A stretch of DNA of 64,000 bases. It comes from Fretibacterium sp. OH1220_COT-178 (GTDB taxonomy: Bacteria; Synergistota; Synergistia; Synergistales; Aminobacteriaceae). The stretch is taken from assembly GCF_003860125.1 (NCBI RefSeq), contig NZ_RQYL01000022.1, positions 1-64,000 on the forward strand. Reading direction: 5' to 3'. Shown in pieces: positions 34,478 through 44,145 of this stretch. The stretch's first letter is position 1. Every line of letters begins with the position of its first letter. A program made the position numbers and the translations under genes. The notes under the pieces are model-generated. The model was not told where the DNA came from. It worked only from the letters and a program-made list of their open reading frames with translations, and did not search any database.

Positions 34478-34551
34478 TGAAAAACATCCGTTTGGCTCTT
34501 GGACCGTCGGGTCGGTCCGGGGGCCCCTATCTCTAGGGAGGTGAGCCGTTG

Positions 34552-36042
34552 ATGAACATGTCCCTGTTTATGATTTTTCCGATCGTTCTTCCTCTCCTCT
34601 CGGGGATGGCTTTCCTGCTGTTTCGCCCCAGAACGGAGAAGCGCGGGCACCGCGTCGTGACATTCGTCACCCTTGCGAACACCCTGATGGTCCTTACCGC
34701 TGTGTTCTGGGCCGGCGACGGCACCCTGACTTTGTGGCGTGCCACGGGCTCCTTGGCGCTGATGTTCCGCATGGACGTGCTGTCCCGCACCTTCGCCGTC
34801 CTGGTATCCGTGATCTGGCCTCCGGTGACCTTCTACGCCTTCGGCTATCTGAAGCATCGCCCGCCGGAGGAGCGATTTTTCGCCTTCTTTCTGATAACGC
34901 TCGGCATCCTGATCGGCATTGCCTGCGCGGCGAATTTCCTGACGCTCTACCTCTTCTACGAGCTGCTGACCTTCGCGACCCTGCCGCTGGTAATGCACTC
35001 CCAGAGGAAGGAGGCCATACGCGCCGCCATGAAGTACCTTTTCTACTCCATCACGGGCGCCTGCCTGGCTCTCACGGGATTTTTCTTCTTTCATCAGTAC
35101 GGCGTCTCGACGGACTTCACCCCAGGCGGCGTCCTGGATGCGGCCAAGCTCGCCGGACACGAGAACCTGATGCTGACGGCCACCTTGCTGACCCTCATCG
35201 GATTTGGGGCGAAGGCAGGACTCTTTCCCATGCACGCCTGGCTCCCGACGGCGCATCCCGTCGCCCCGACGCCCGCGAGCGCGGTACTGTCCGGGCTCAT
35301 CACCAAGGCGGGGGTCGTCGCCACCGCACGGATCATTTATTTCATGGCCGGCCCTCGGTTTCTACGCGGCACCTGGGTACAGACGACGCTGATCTGCCTC
35401 TCGCTCCTCACCATCTTTATGGGGTCCATGCTGGCCTACATGGAGAAGCACCTGAAAAAACGAATCGCCTACTCGTCCGTCAGCCAAGTGTCCTACATCC
35501 TCTTCGGCCTGATGCTGCTTACCCCGGAGGGCGTGGCCGGAGCGCTGCTGCAGCTTGTGGCTCACGCCTTCGCCAAAAGCTGCCTGTTCCTGGGCGCTGG
35601 GGTCGTCATCTATTTCAGGCTGCCCAACTCGAACTATCATTACGTCGACCAGCTCAGGGGCGTGGGAAAGGAGCTGCCCGTCACCCTTACCTGCTTTACC
35701 CTGGCCTCCATGTCCCTGATCGGCGTCCCCCCCACCGGAGGTTTTGTCAGCAAATGGTACCTTGCGGTCGGGGCGCTCCACCCCGGGCTCGGGCGAATGG
35801 GACTGATCGGGGTGATCGTCCTGCTGATCAGCGCAATACTCACGGCGGGCTATCTGCTGCCCATCGTCACCAGCGCTTTTTTCCCCGGCAAGGACTATGA
35901 CTACAGCAAGCCGATGCCTCCCAGACCGCCTCTCAAGATGCAGATTCCTCTGATCCTCTTCAGCGCCGCCACCTTGGCGACGGGCATGTTCGCAGGCCCT
36001 CTGCTGCGATACTTCCAGCGGTTCACAGCAACCATCTTCTAA
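34552..36042 (+). CDS. Proton-conducting antiporter subunit, second copy (NuoM/MnhD-like)
   Basis: The 496-residue protein has ~14 membrane helices. The TM5 glutamate is in LYLFYELLTFATLPLVMH, the TM7 lysine in GFGAKAGLFPMHAWLPTAH, and a later lysine pair in HLKKRIAYSSVSQVSYILFG. It is closer to the third copy than to the first, which suggests an internal duplication. GGGAGG precedes the start with an ATG at 34549 or 34552. It follows the first copy after a 160-bp gap holding a hairpin. Confidence 0.92.
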   Translation: MNMSLFMIFPIVLPLLSGMAFLLFRPRTEKRGHRVVTFVTLANTLMVLTAVFWAGDGTLTLWRATGSLALMFRMDVLSRTFAVLVSVIWPPVTFYAFGYLKHRPPEERFFAFFLITLGILIGIACAANFLTLYLFYELLTFATLPLVMHSQRKEAIRAAMKYLFYSITGACLALTGFFFFHQYGVSTDFTPGGVLDAAKLAGHENLMLTATLLTLIGFGAKAGLFPMHAWLPTAHPVAPTPASAVLSGLITKAGVVATARIIYFMAGPRFLRGTWVQTTLICLSLLTIFMGSMLAYMEKHLKKRIAYSSVSQVSYILFGLMLLTPEGVAGALLQLVAHAFAKSCLFLGAGVVIYFRLPNSNYHYVDQLRGVGKELPVTLTCFTLASMSLIGVPPTGGFVSKWYLAVGALHPGLGRMGLIGVIVLLISAILTAGYLLPIVTSAFFPGKDYDYSKPMPPRPPLKMQIPLILFSAATLATGMFAGPLLRYFQRFTATIF

Positions 36043-36060
36043 AGTTAGAGGACAAGTCCA

Positions 36061-37533
36061 ATGACAGCCTTGTTTCTCCTCCTTCCCATCCTGATTCCGT
36101 TCATCGCCGCTTTGGGCCTGGCCTCAATGAGGCCCCGGTCCCGAACGCGGCTCGCGCTCGTCGCAGGGACCGTCGCGACGGCGAACACGCTGTTCACACT
36201 GCTGATCGTCCGGAACGCCCCTGCGGACACCTTGACCCTCCTTCGCCTCTCCCCTCGGCTGTCGTTCGCTCTGCACCTTGACGGCCTGGGGGCGACTTTT
36301 GCCGTGATCGTGGCTCTGCTCTGGGTGCCGACGACGCTCTACGCCCTCGAGTACATGAAGCACGAAGGACGAGAAAAAGCCTTCTTTGCCTGGTTCACCC
36401 TGACCTACGGCGTGGTGCTCGGTATCGCCTTCTCGGCAAACCTCCTGACCCTCTACTTTTTCTACGAGCTCATGACCCTGACCACGCTGCCGCTCGTGAT
36501 GCACGCCATGGACGACCGGGCTCGGGCCGCAGGGAAAAAGTACCTGACCTACTCCGTGGGGGGGGCCTCCTGCGCCTTCGTCGTTTTGGTTTTTACAGCG
36601 CTGCACGGAGCCGGAGCCCCTTTCGCGATGGGGGGAAACCTCGACGACACGGTCCTGGCCGTGCCCCGCAACACGCTGCTCACTCTCTACTTTCTGGGCT
36701 TCCTGGGGTTCGGCGTCAAGGCCGCGGTCTTCCCGTTCCACGGATGGCTTCCGGCTGCGTCCGTAGCTCCCACGCCGGTCACGGCGCTGCTCCATGCCGT
36801 TGCGGTCGTGAAGGGCGGCGTCTTTGCGATCATCCGCCTGACCCACTTCGTCTTCGGCCCCGGCCTTCTGCTCGGAAGCTGGGCCCAGACCGCCGCTCTG
36901 GCGCTGGTTTGCTTCACGATCGTCTACGGGTCCGCGAAAGCCTTGGCCTCACAGCACCTGAAGCTGCGCTTCGCCTACTCCACCGTCGCCCAGCTTTCCT
37001 ACATTCTTCTGGGAGCAATTCTGCTGACGCCCGAGGGCCTGGTGGGAAGCCTGACCCACATGGCCGGGCACGCGCTGATGAAGATCAACCTCTTCTTCTG
37101 CGCGGGCGCGATCCTGTACAAGACACACCGGGAGTATCTGTACGACATGCGCGGCATAGGGGTGGGGATGCCCAAAACGCTCTTCTGCCTCGCGGTATCG
37201 GGAATGGCCCTCGCCGGCCTGCCGCCCCTGGCGGGATTCGTGGGCAAGTGGCAGATCGGAACCGCGGCCGCCACCGCTCCCTACGGCTACATCGGCATCG
37301 CCGCCCTGATGCTCTCCGCGCTGCTGACGGTGCTCTACATCTTCTCCGTGCTGGGCATCGCCACCATGCCCGGCCGCAACTTCGACTTCGACGCAGCCAA
37401 CAAGGGGGTCGAGGACCCAAACATCCTGATGACGGGACCGATGTTCACCCTGGCCATCGCGGCCATACTGTACGGCTTGTATTCGGAATCCGTGCTCCGC
37501 TTCTTCGGACGGATCGCCGCCGGATTGCTGTAA
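36061..37533 (+). CDS. Proton-conducting antiporter subunit, third copy (NuoM/MnhD-like)
   Basis: The 490-residue protein has ~14 membrane helices. Key residues are retained: the TM5 glutamate in LYFFYELMTLTTLPLVMHA and the TM7 lysine in GFGVKAAVFPFHGWLPAAS. The segment FAYSTVAQLSYILLGAILL matches the second copy closely, including LTPEG after it. It lies 18 bp after the second copy, in the same operon. Confidence 0.92.
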   Translation: MTALFLLLPILIPFIAALGLASMRPRSRTRLALVAGTVATANTLFTLLIVRNAPADTLTLLRLSPRLSFALHLDGLGATFAVIVALLWVPTTLYALEYMKHEGREKAFFAWFTLTYGVVLGIAFSANLLTLYFFYELMTLTTLPLVMHAMDDRARAAGKKYLTYSVGGASCAFVVLVFTALHGAGAPFAMGGNLDDTVLAVPRNTLLTLYFLGFLGFGVKAAVFPFHGWLPAASVAPTPVTALLHAVAVVKGGVFAIIRLTHFVFGPGLLLGSWAQTAALALVCFTIVYGSAKALASQHLKLRFAYSTVAQLSYILLGAILLTPEGLVGSLTHMAGHALMKINLFFCAGAILYKTHREYLYDMRGIGVGMPKTLFCLAVSGMALAGLPPLAGFVGKWQIGTAAATAPYGYIGIAALMLSALLTVLYIFSVLGIATMPGRNFDFDAANKGVEDPNILMTGPMFTLAIAAILYGLYSESVLRFFGRIAAGLL

Positions 37534-39819: not shown

Positions 39820-40113
39820 CTAAGAGCCGGCTTCCTGTCTGTCGATGCAGTGCAATGCCTGAGCCAGACAGACCATTTTCAGTCGGTAATAGACGTTCTG
39901 CCCCTCCCGGCGATCCTCCAGGATCCCGAGCTGACGCATCACCGCCAGGTGCTTGCTGGTGGTCGTCCGGTCGCAGGAAAAATGCTCCGCGATCTCGCAG
40001 GCGCAGAGCTCCCGCTCCTCCAGCATCTCCGCGATGGCGATGCGCACCGGATGCGCCAGCCCCTTCAGGATCTCCGCCTTGCGGCGCACCCGCTCCTCCC
40101 CGGCCAATCCCAT
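39820..40113 (-). CDS. arsR: ArsR/SmtB family repressor
   Basis: The 97-residue winged-helix repressor is of the arsenic/antimony-sensing type. The recognition region has ELCACEIAEHFSCDRTTTSK, with the CxC pair plus nearby Cys that bind As(III) in ArsR, then HLAVMRQLGILEDRREGQNVYYRL as the wing. I chose the ATG at 40113, just after AAGGGGGGAG; an ATG at 40146 is also in frame. It lies ~60 bp downstream of the methyltransferase gene on the same strand and probably represses the operon through the palindrome at 41014-41029. Confidence 0.88.
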   Translation of the reverse strand: MGLAGEERVRRKAEILKGLAHPVRIAIAEMLEERELCACEIAEHFSCDRTTTSKHLAVMRQLGILEDRREGQNVYYRLKMVCLAQALHCIDRQEAGS

Positions 40114-40174
40114 CCCGCTCCCCCCTTCCGTCGGCCCTCCGTCCATCCCGCCGGCCCCGGCGATCGGGACTCCA

Positions 40175-40969
40175 TCAGGGTCGAAGCGCCGTTATCAGGG
40201 CGCTCGAGGACAAGCCCTTCAGGGCGAGCAACTCCTCCTCGCTCAGCGCGCCCACATCCTGACTCAAGATCTCCGCGTTCACCTCGTGAGGCTTCGTCGG
40301 GACGACGCGCACATCGAAAAAGCCCGCCCTCTCCAGTCCCGCCTTGTACTCCTCCAACGGAAGAGCGCCGGCCAGTCACCCGCTCCAGGCCGAGGGACTC
40401 ATCCTGAGCCTGTCCGGAACCGGCTTCAGCAGCACGACGTCCGAGACGCAGAAACGTCCGCCCGGGGCCAGGACCCGTGCGGCCTCAGAGAAGACCGCGC
40501 CCTTGTCCGGCGAGAGGTTGATGACGCAGTTGGAGATCAGAACGTCCGCGCTGCCGTCGTAGAGCGGCAGTTCCTCGATACACCCCCTCAGGAGCACCAC
40601 GTTCCTCAGCCCCAGGCGCTCGAGGTTCCTCCTCGCCCGCGCCAGCATCCCGGGCGTCATGTCCAGCCCGTAGACCAGCCCCCGCTCTCCGACGGCGCGC
40701 GCCGCCAGGATCAGGTCCAGCCCCGCCCCACAGCCCAGGTCCAGAACGCGCTCCCCGGGGACGAGCCGCGCCGCCTCCACGGGGTTCCCACAGCCGAAGG
40801 AATGCTCCGCCGCCTCCCCCGTTCCCTCGAGTGCCGCGGAATCGTAGTTGCCCCGCGTCATGTCCGTCACCGTATCGGCCACGGAACCCCGACCGGCGGC
40901 GCGGCGCTCTATGGCCGTGCCGTAAGAATCCCGCACCATCCTCCGGATACTCCTCGCTCCCTCCCGCAT
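40175..40969 (-). CDS. arsM: Arsenite methyltransferase-like selenoprotein (ArsM with Sec at UGA 40376-40378)
   Basis: This is a SAM-dependent methyltransferase of the ArsM type, which methylates trivalent arsenic. SAM motif I is VLDLGCGAGLD. Family motifs include SFGCGNPVEAARL, SNCVINLSPDK and RVLAPGGRFCVSDVV. An in-frame TGA at 40376-40378 (residue ~198) interrupts SAWSG-LAGALPLEEY exactly where ArsM proteins carry the arsenic-binding, catalytic Cys (W-x-G-C-x-x-GAL). The same frame then continues with good homology for 66 codons to a TGA at 40175. Directly after the UGA a 7-bp hairpin with a GUU loop fits a bacterial SECIS element. The predicted product is 264 residues with selenocysteine. 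The start at 40969 follows GGAGGGGGGAAG; the ATG at 41020 lies inside the operator. A simple nonsense mutation is the alternative. Confidence 0.8.
40348..40366 (-). promoter_or_regulatory. SECIS-like hairpin downstream of the in-frame UGA
   Basis: On the minus strand CUCUUCC (40365-40359) pairs over 7 bp with GGAGGAG (40355-40349) around a three-base loop GUU. Ten bases separate the UGA from the stem, placing the apical loop 17 nt after the UGA. That distance and a G at the start of the loop agree with bacterial SECIS elements. Confidence 0.6.
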
Positions 40970-41013
40970 CCTCTTCCCCCCTCCGGAACGCAACAAGCCG
41001 TCCCGATCAATAT

Positions 41014-41041
41014 GTGGCATTTATGCCACGTGGCGATTATA
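41014..41041 (-). promoter_or_regulatory. Promoter and probable ArsR operator of the arsM-arsR operon
   Basis: On the minus strand an extended -10 (TGGTATAAT, with TATAAT at 41036-41041) is followed within a few bases by the perfect palindrome GTGGCATAAATGCCAC (41014-41029). This palindrome would cover the transcription start. Such placement suits repression by the ArsR encoded downstream. Confidence 0.65.
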
Positions 41042-41188
41042 CCACACAAGAAAGGAAGATTCGGATGCCTGTCGTCCCGAGGCCCCGGGCTGCGCCGAAC
41101 GACGGACCCCGGCCGCTCCCGCGGGATCCGGGGGATCCCGCGGCGCGCCGGTCCGCCGCCTCGAGCGGGGGATCGAGGAGAATCCGGC

Positions 41189-41992
41189 TCAGGATCGGGG
41201 GCCGGCCGGCAGGGGCTCCACGAACAATTCGGCCCGCGAATAGAGCGCCGCCCGGCCCGCCATCTTCACCCGCTCCCCGTCCAGCCTGCAGTACAGAGTG
41301 CCGCCCCGCCGCGACAGCTGCCGGGCGACCATCGTCTCCTTGCCCAGGCGAGCGGACCAGAACGGGATCAGGTTGCAGTGGGCGGAGCCGCAGACCGGGT
41401 CCTCGTCCACCCCCAGCTTAGGGAAGAAGGCCCGGGAGACGAAGTCGAACTCCGACCCGCGCGCCGTAACGATCACGCCCAGCCCGTCCGCAAGGCGGGT
41501 CAGCCTCGAAAAGTCCGGCTTCAGGTCGCGCACCTGCGCCTCGTCCCGCAGGAGGAACATCAGGTCGCGCCTGAGGTACGTCTCGGTCGGCACCACGCCC
41601 AGAGCCTCGGCCATCGCTTCGGTGGGGGCATGAGGTTCCGGAACGAGACTGGGGAAGTCCAGTTCGTACAGATCCCCCTTCCGGGCGACGGTCAGTTCGC
41701 CGCCCGCGGTCTCGAAACTCAGGGACTCCCGCCCGGGCTCGACGAATCGGTCGATGACGAAGGCCGTCGCCAGAGTGGCGTGCCCGCACAGGTCGATCTC
41801 CCCTCCGGGGGTGAACCAGCGCAGCCGGTAGCGCCCCCCGCCCCCCACGGCAAACGCCGTCTCCGAGAGGTTGTTCTCCGTGGCGATGTTCTGCATGAGC
41901 GCATCGGCCGGCCAGTCCTCCAGGACGCACACCCCCGCGGGGTTCCCCTCGAAGACTCGGTCCGCAAAGGCATCCACGACGTAATACTGCAT
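41189..41992 (-). CDS. PhzF family isomerase/epimerase
   Basis: The 267-residue protein is of the PhzF/YddE family with the diaminopimelate-epimerase fold. The N-terminal motif is YYVVDAFADRVFEGNPAGVCVL. The catalytic Glu lies in NNLSETAFAVGG (E45) and is followed by YRLRWFTPGGEIDLCGHATLA. The second lobe has DPVCGSAHCNLIPFWSARLG. Family members isomerise small metabolites; the best known is trans-2,3-dihydro-3-hydroxyanthranilate, but most are uncharacterised. No phenazine genes are present. It lies 46 bp after the M20 hydrolase gene on the same strand and may share its transcript. Confidence 0.9.
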   Translation of the reverse strand: MQYYVVDAFADRVFEGNPAGVCVLEDWPADALMQNIATENNLSETAFAVGGGGRYRLRWFTPGGEIDLCGHATLATAFVIDRFVEPGRESLSFETAGGELTVARKGDLYELDFPSLVPEPHAPTEAMAEALGVVPTETYLRRDLMFLLRDEAQVRDLKPDFSRLTRLADGLGVIVTARGSEFDFVSRAFFPKLGVDEDPVCGSAHCNLIPFWSARLGKETMVARQLSRRGGTLYCRLDGERVKMAGRAALYSRAELFVEPLPAGPRS

Positions 41993-42038
41993 TCTGCAAG
42001 CCTCCCTTCCGATTGAGCCGGGCCGAAAACGGCCCGCC

Positions 42039-43232
42039 TCAATCGTCCTGCCAGGTCAGGGCGAACTGCGCCATCGTGCCCGTACCGGTCCAGAGCACGT
42101 CCTCGTTCAGGTCGAACTTCGGGTGGTGGTGCGGGTAGTCGCGCCCGCCGCCGAAGGTGGAGGGATGGAAGAAGAACACGCCCGGCGCCTTTTCCAGGAA
42201 GAACGCCATGTCCTCCCCGCCCATGGTCGGCTCGTCGACCTCGCGGACGTGTTCGGGGCCCACCACCGCTCCGGCCGCGCGCAGCAGCTTCGCCGTCATC
42301 TCGGGCGCGTTGGTCGTGGGGGGCGGTCCGTAGTGGAACTCCACGGACGCGCTGCCCCGCATGGCGGAGGCCACCCCCTCGACGATCCCGCGGATCCGGT
42401 CCTGCAGCTCCTTGCGGGTTTCGGCCGTGAGCGCGCGCAGCGTCCCCTTCATCACGCAGTCGGGCGGGACGATGTTGCCCGCCGAGCCGCTCTGGAACGT
42501 CCCGATCGTCAGCACGGCCGGGGCCAGAGGGCTGATCTCGCGGCTCACGATGGTCTGGAGCGTCGTGTAGATCTGGCAGCCGATGGCGATGGGGTCGATC
42601 GTGCGGTGCGGGGTCGCTCCATGGCCGCCCTTGCCCGTGACCGTGATGGTGAACATGTCGGCCGCGGCCATCAGGGGGCCGTTGCTGTAGCCGATCTCGC
42701 CGGCGTCGACCCCGGTCCAGAAGTTGCCCGTGTGGAGCCCGATGAAGGCGTCGACCTTCGGGTTCTCAAGCACCCCGTCCGCGATCATCGCGGGCGCGCC
42801 CGACCCCGTCTCCTCCGAGGGCTGGAAGATCAGCTTGACGGCCCCCTTCAGCTTGTCGCGGTGCGCCGTCAGCAGCCTGGCCGCCCCCAGGAGCATCGCG
42901 GTATGGGCGTCGTGCCCGCAGGCGTGCATGCGCCCGTCCACCGTGGAGGCGAACGGCAGGCCCGTCTCCTCGCGAACGGGAAGGGCGTCCATGTCCGCCC
43001 TCATCCCCAGAACCTTTCCGGGCAGATCGCCCCGGATCACCGCGGCAACGCCGTTTTTGGCGACACCCGTCCGGATCTCCGTCACCCCCATCTCCCCGAG
43101 CCGCTCCACCACAAAGGCCGCCGTCTCGACGGTGTCGAACCCCAACTCCGGGTGCGCGTGCAGGTGGCGGCGCCACTCCACGAGCTGCGCGTTCAGCTTC
43201 CCGGCCTCTTCCCTGATGTTCACGTCCTTCAT
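42039..43232 (-). CDS. M20 family amidohydrolase (N-acyl-amino acid / hippurate hydrolase type)
   Basis: The 397-residue zinc-dependent hydrolase is of the M20D subgroup (hippurate hydrolase, IAA-amino acid hydrolase). The N-terminal RRHLHAHPELGF is typical. Metal-site residues appear in MRADMDALPV, HACGHDAHTAMLLG (C105, H107) and FQPSEETGSGA, and the C-terminal metal ligand in FFHPSTFGGG. The dimerisation domain (ITVTGKGGHGATPHRTID) is present. The start at 43232 is chosen by homology, with GGAGGGAGG 12 bp upstream. It releases an amino acid from an N-acyl derivative, in line with the amino-acid diet suggested by neighbours. Confidence 0.92.
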   Translation of the reverse strand: MKDVNIREEAGKLNAQLVEWRRHLHAHPELGFDTVETAAFVVERLGEMGVTEIRTGVAKNGVAAVIRGDLPGKVLGMRADMDALPVREETGLPFASTVDGRMHACGHDAHTAMLLGAARLLTAHRDKLKGAVKLIFQPSEETGSGAPAMIADGVLENPKVDAFIGLHTGNFWTGVDAGEIGYSNGPLMAAADMFTITVTGKGGHGATPHRTIDPIAIGCQIYTTLQTIVSREISPLAPAVLTIGTFQSGSAGNIVPPDCVMKGTLRALTAETRKELQDRIRGIVEGVASAMRGSASVEFHYGPPPTTNAPEMTAKLLRAAGAVVGPEHVREVDEPTMGGEDMAFFLEKAPGVFFFHPSTFGGGRDYPHHHPKFDLNEDVLWTGTGTMAQFALTWQDD

Positions 43233-43430
43233 TGCAGGCTGGAACCTCCCTCCGAAATCGTGCCGCGGGGCCTTCGGCCCCCCGCGTCCCTGTGCGTTCC
43301 CTCGCGAACGCCGCCTCTTTTGCCTCCGTCTATTGTACTTCCATCCCCCGTTATTTGCCCCCAGGGGCTGCCAAATCATGGCGCGCGGCCGAAACCGTCC
43401 GACTTTTGGACCACAAACCAATTGACGACC

Positions 43431-43459
43431 TTGATTTTCTTTTGCTTTAAGGCTATATT
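43431..43459 (+). promoter_or_regulatory. Predicted promoter of the first TRAP operon
   Basis: TTGATT (43431-43436) and TATATT (43454-43459) are separated by exactly 17 bp. They lie in the 376-bp AT-rich gap 43233-43608 that separates the divergent M20 and TRAP genes. The remaining leader of ~140 nt holds no gene. Confidence 0.6.
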
Positions 43460-43608
43460 ATTCGACAAAACAAAATCGGGCAATCCAGACCCCCGGCAAA
43501 GACATTCCAAATCAGGGTTTTCCCTTTGAGAAACTGGATTCCCGTTCGGCAAGCCAACCCAAGGACCTCGTTCATCAAAAATACTTTTCGAGAAAGAGGC
43601 GAATTGCC

Positions 43609-44145
43609 ATGCGTCCGACACGCACACTCTGGAACCTGATGGGAAGCCTGCAAAACGTCATCATGGTGCTGTCCTCGGTCACCATCGTCGCACTCATCCT
43701 GGTTCAGGTGCTCCTGCGCTACTTCTTCATGATGCCCCTCATGGGCGTCGAAGAACTGGCCTGCCTGTGCGGCTTCTGGCTCTATTTCATCGGGGCCGCC
43801 AACGGCGCGCGCGAACGGAGCCACATCAAGGCCGACCTGCTGAACGTCTTCATCAAGAACGAACGGTGGCTCTCCGCGGCAAAGGCGCTTTCGTCCCTGA
43901 TCCTGCTCGTGCTCGCCACCTTGTTCGTGGAATGGACCTTCAGCTACCTCCGCTGGTCGGTGAAGTCCTGGGAGCGCTCTCCGGCCCTGTCCATCCCCAT
44001 GGTCTACGCCCAGGCAAGCCTCTTGGTCAGCGCAGTTCTCATGCTTTTCTATTTCTTCGTGGAGTTTTTGGACTACGTCAGGCAGGTCCTGGGCTACAGC
44101 CCCTTCAACCCGGAACTCTATCAGAGCGAGCAGGAGTGTGAGTAG
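43609..44145 (+). CDS. TRAP transporter small membrane subunit (DctQ)
   Basis: The 178-residue DctQ-type subunit has four membrane helices and the family pattern VLIQVLLRYFFMMPLMGVEELA-like (here LILVQVLLRYFFMMPLMGVE) followed by GANGARERSHIKADLL. It anchors the large DctM channel, whose gene starts 2 bp after its stop. A GAGGC site precedes the ATG. The complete importer is at 43609-46605. Confidence 0.92.
   Translation: MRPTRTLWNLMGSLQNVIMVLSSVTIVALILVQVLLRYFFMMPLMGVEELACLCGFWLYFIGAANGARERSHIKADLLNVFIKNERWLSAAKALSSLILLVLATLFVEWTFSYLRWSVKSWERSPALSIPMVYAQASLLVSAVLMLFYFFVEFLDYVRQVLGYSPFNPELYQSEQECE

Follow-up and report, generated by a model that had tools for sequence, protein, structure and literature searches.

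The stretch of DNA analyzed here, referred to as the window, comprises 64,000 nucleotides from Fretibacterium sp. OH1220_COT-178. It carries a gene for an arsenite S-adenosylmethyltransferase (ArsM) with an internal TGA codon, a predicted hairpin behind this codon and, directly downstream of arsM, a gene for an ArsR/SmtB-family repressor (Table 1).

Table 1. Position of arsM, its predicted functional elements and its neighbors in the window.
Feature	Positions	Strand	Basis
arsM, predicted selenoprotein, arsenite S-adenosylmethyltransferase of 264 aa including Sec198	40175..40969	-	NF008823 match, frame, homologues
Internal TGA codon (predicted Sec198), aligned with CmArsM Cys224	40376..40378	-	homologue and CmArsM alignments
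Predicted bacterial SECIS hairpin, 8 bp including G-U, GUU loop	40348..40366	-	folding, homologue conservation
Cys60 codon, CmArsM Cys72 equivalent, SFGCG motif	40790..40792	-	invariant in 30/30 homologues
Cys148 codon, CmArsM Cys174 equivalent, ISNCV motif	40526..40528	-	invariant in 30/30 homologues
arsR, ArsR/SmtB-family repressor, ELCACE motif	39820..40146	-	NF033788 (84.8 bits), PF01022
Imperfect 34-bp palindrome upstream of arsM, TATAAT on the minus strand; possible operator	41013..41046	.	sequence; operator function inferred
PhzF-like protein	41189-41992		neighbor gene
M20 peptidase	42039-43421		neighbor gene
TRAP transporter small subunit	43609-44145		neighbor gene
Two Mrp/NADH-dehydrogenase-type antiporter subunits	34549-37533		neighbor genes

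The arsM gene and its genetic environment

The arsM gene starts with ATG (40969-40967) on the minus strand, and its sole internal in-frame TGA (40378-40376) is codon 198; another 66 sense codons lead up to the terminal TGA (40177-40175). This confirms the preliminary description of the DNA, in which an in-frame TGA followed by 66 codons up to a normal stop had been pointed out. When the TGA is read through, the protein scores 268 bits against NF008823, the NCBIfam profile for arsenite methyltransferase (cut-off 263), and the closest solved structures are those of the arsenite methyltransferases 5evj, 4kw7, and 4fr0. A gene caller without support for selenocysteine (Sec) would cut arsM short at residue 197. 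A longer frame of 402 amino acids, obtained when the terminal TGA is translated as U as well, was rejected because the homologues end at this very point with TAA, TAG, or TGA.

Together with the adjacent arsR, arsM may form a small arsenic-responsive detoxification unit. The palindrome upstream of arsM is a possible candidate for the operator through which ArsR would exert such control, and a scan for sigma-70 promoters gave no match in the region upstream of arsM. An arsR-like gene was detected nearby at only three of the 10 loci for Sec-containing ArsM that are described below. The neighboring genes at 34549-37533 and 41189-44145 include none related to arsenic.

The TGA codon and the arsenic-ligand site

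The internal TGA had initially been placed at the catalytic, arsenic-binding cysteine of the family, and comparison with ArsM from Cyanidioschyzon merolae (CmArsM, PDB 4fr0) bears this out exactly: residue 198 aligns with chain position 224, while Cys60 and Cys148 align with the motifs around CmArsM Cys72 and Cys174. If Sec is allowed at position 224, all three arsenic-ligand positions are therefore kept. The CmArsM mutants C174A and C224A carry out neither of the two methylation steps (PMC3877260). Although CmArsM and 5evj belong to the same family as the protein studied here, CmArsM differs from it by a cysteine at position 224, by the presence of Cys44 and by a longer C-terminal part.

Of 188 searched genomes from the phylum, 50 contained an arsM homologue, and an alignment of 30 genes showed that the catalytic column is occupied by TGA in 10 and by TGC or TGT in the other 20, such that the cysteine and TGA forms sought among related genomes were both found, alternating at one and the same column. 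The 10 TGA genes stem from separate genomes representing eight genera and two families, and they form one clade with a support of 100/100. Among the relatives found outside the phylum there was no Sec form; cysteine is present wherever the match covers the column. For the TGA genes, the mean pN/pS ratio amounts to 0.41 after the TGA versus 0.32 before it, and we therefore conclude that the sequence past the TGA remains under purifying selection at the protein level.

These observations bear on the view that the TGA arose by nonsense mutation or sequencing error and that arsM is a pseudogene or encodes a truncated protein. Draft assemblies often contain such breaks, and without Sec insertion the frame would indeed end at residue 197. 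However, a sequencing error confined to one genome or a nonsense mutation of recent origin can be ruled out, given that 10 genomes have TGA at the same column; the gene is conserved past the TGA and the genome possesses a system for Sec incorporation, all of which makes this explanation very improbable.

The genome bearing arsM contains all four of selA, selB, selC, and selD: the proteins SelA, SelB, and SelD are present, and a tRNA-Sec with the anticodon TCA was detected with 74 bits, above the Rfam cut-off. Furthermore, SelD itself has an in-frame TGA (TSGUAAK site), as has GrdA (CFVUT). The frame of arsM is open on either side of its TGA, as would also be expected if UGA were translated as tryptophan or another residue, be it by an alternative genetic code or by general readthrough. 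We consider this extremely improbable, since TGA terminates arsM as well as many of its homologues, the residue aligned with the internal TGA is always cysteine and never tryptophan, and the tRNA-Sec with its TCA anticodon is encoded in the genome.

A conserved hairpin downstream of the TGA

The hairpin (40366-40348) starts 10 nt past the TGA, consists of 7 bp (8 with the closing G-U pair) and a GUU loop and has a calculated energy of -9.5 kcal/mol. Published limits for bacterial SECIS elements are a loop of 3-9 nt, a stem of 4-16 bp, a G in loop position 1 or 2, a spacing of 16-37 nt, and a minimum free energy of -7.5 or lower (PMC13188914). The arsM hairpin lies within these limits with a spacing of 17 nt and its GUU loop, in agreement with the first account, which had described a 7-bp hairpin of a size and distance typical of a bacterial SECIS. 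The same rule is passed by 71 of the 1661 TGA trinucleotides of the window (4.3%), and a hairpin in a single sequence is therefore weak evidence. Even the terminal TGA of arsM passes. At gathering thresholds, Rfam models matched a single tRNA in the window and nothing at the hairpin.

It is the conservation over 10 genes that makes the predicted SECIS hairpin convincing. Across the TGA genes, 97.5% of the cells in the alignment agree with the pairing, compared with 49-58% when the pairing pattern is slid along the sequence, and the hairpin is not folded by the 20 Cys genes of the phylum. Its conservation among homologues is thus confined to the genes with TGA. The fourth and fifth codons after the TGA, GCT and CTT, are invariant in all 10, even though they are minor codons in these genes (27 of 279 alanine and 35 of 281 leucine codons, respectively). 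Folding energies relative to codon-shuffled sequences point in the same direction, with a mean z of -2.0 for the TGA genes versus -0.2 for the Cys genes; in two of the 10 TGA genes the minimum energy is not below that of the shuffles. Almost no compensatory change was seen across the 10 genes; variation in the hairpin is too scarce for covariation to be informative. In selD of the same genome, the TGA likewise precedes a hairpin whose apex (CC-GGC-GG) is similar in shape to that of the arsM hairpin.

Taken together, the genes for Sec incorporation, the alignment with Cys224, the homologues with TGA or cysteine, and the conservation of the hairpin support the original proposal of a probable Sec-containing ArsM. 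Judging from the sequence, we estimate a probability of about 0.95 that arsM is translated into a complete ArsM with Sec in place of Cys224, inserted at UGA codon 198 under the direction of the hairpin. The codon would be decoded by tRNA-Sec and SelB, with the hairpin located 10 nt downstream acting as the signal. Sec198 would thus stand in for one of the two thiols that are needed for both methylation steps. With Sec198 at the place of Cys224, the ligands of arsenic(III) are probably Cys60, Cys148, and Sec198; we infer an As-Se bond in this complex and S-adenosylmethionine as the donor of the methyl groups. The gene is a clean and checkable case in which selenium would occupy an arsenic-binding site.

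Substrate and relation to known Sec-containing methyltransferases

The enzyme has no cysteine before the SFGCG motif and hence lacks an equivalent of CmArsM Cys44. The same holds true for five of the 10 Sec forms, including the one studied here, versus one of the 20 Cys forms (Fisher p 0.009, calculated with kinship ignored). In human AS3MT the counterpart of Cys44 is the N-terminal Cys32, which only the first methylation step requires (PMC3877260). Cys44 equivalents count among the four conserved ArsM cysteines, at least three of which were required in a previous study (PMC5552862), and for this reason the lack of the N-terminal cysteine was not taken to exclude the protein from the ArsM family. 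The loss of this residue in half of the Sec enzymes is possibly a new detail. Sec-containing ArsM could be a mechanistic variant that dispenses with the Cys44 thiol in catalysis or prefers methylarsenite, a tentative idea that we regard as rather doubtful.

It is also conceivable, albeit unlikely, that the protein is a selenoprotein methyltransferase for a substrate other than inorganic arsenite, such as methylarsenite or another metalloid compound. In addition to the missing Cys44 equivalent, whose human counterpart serves the first methylation, such a role would be in line with an NF008823 score barely above the cut-off (268 vs. 263) and with a search of the genome that detected no acr3. On the other hand, the retention of Cys60, Cys148, and Sec198 at the arsenic-ligand positions and an adjoining gene for an ArsR protein with an ELCACE motif argue for methylation of arsenite by the Sec-containing ArsM as the more probable activity.

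Catalogues of selenoproteins have included members of the ArsM family since about 2007-2008, a point absent from the preliminary description. Such proteins were reported from ocean metagenomes (PMC2398784), one count gave 41 genes from 39 organisms (PMC5029168), and two sources list them among the selenoprotein families, with UxxG as their motif (PMC9312934; PMC13188914, which cites Fomenko et al. 2007); Synergistetes have been described as rich in selenoproteins (PMC5029168). As Sec-containing ArsM with UxxG is already listed, the gene described here is a further member of a known family and not the founder of a new one. It shares the profile family (PRK11873/NF008823, e.g., WP_011987699.1), the single Sec at the catalytic cysteine and the UxxG motif (here ULAG), and compared by description with this family it is known to differ only in sequence detail, having no N-terminal cysteines. 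The ArsM-like fusions NF041536, NF041537, and NF047649, which are listed with a UxxG Sec motif and contain two or three Sec residues, possess a related methyltransferase domain, but our protein reaches only 155-163 bits against their cut-offs of 460-575 and has no fused domain. For ArsM_AhpD_UU, ArsM_DUF2284_UU, and MTase_UXPK_star the scores are 162.8, 155, and 162.2 bits against 510, 575, and 460, respectively, and membership was rejected, a fused second Sec domain being absent.

The occurrence of Cys and Sec forms within one phylum would allow the contribution of selenium to arsenic methylation to be measured. Both types of arsM, Sec and Cys, occur together in genome G036 (L020 on contig C122; contig C69, positions 108-893), a natural pair in which the two forms can be compared.

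A second group of TGA-containing, ArsM-like methyltransferase genes is present in the same phylum (L071 in G110:C2, L072 in G103:C176, L074 in G112:C83, and L075 in G121:C14). These have TGA at the matching site (U-x-GGA), and glycine replaces the Cys174 equivalent (SNGV or TNGV). L071 scored best against NF041536 and NF041537, two families of fusions with several Sec residues, yet stayed below the respective cut-offs. A divergent ArsM-like gene on a long tree branch (L073 in G114:C1, frame 1721-2729) has a TGA at the same site (HGTUVGGAI), possibly the result of a separate change from cysteine to Sec. Finally, one arsM homologue (L076, G175:C1:380605-381328) is distributed over two frames, a split that is possibly due to a frameshift or an assembly error.
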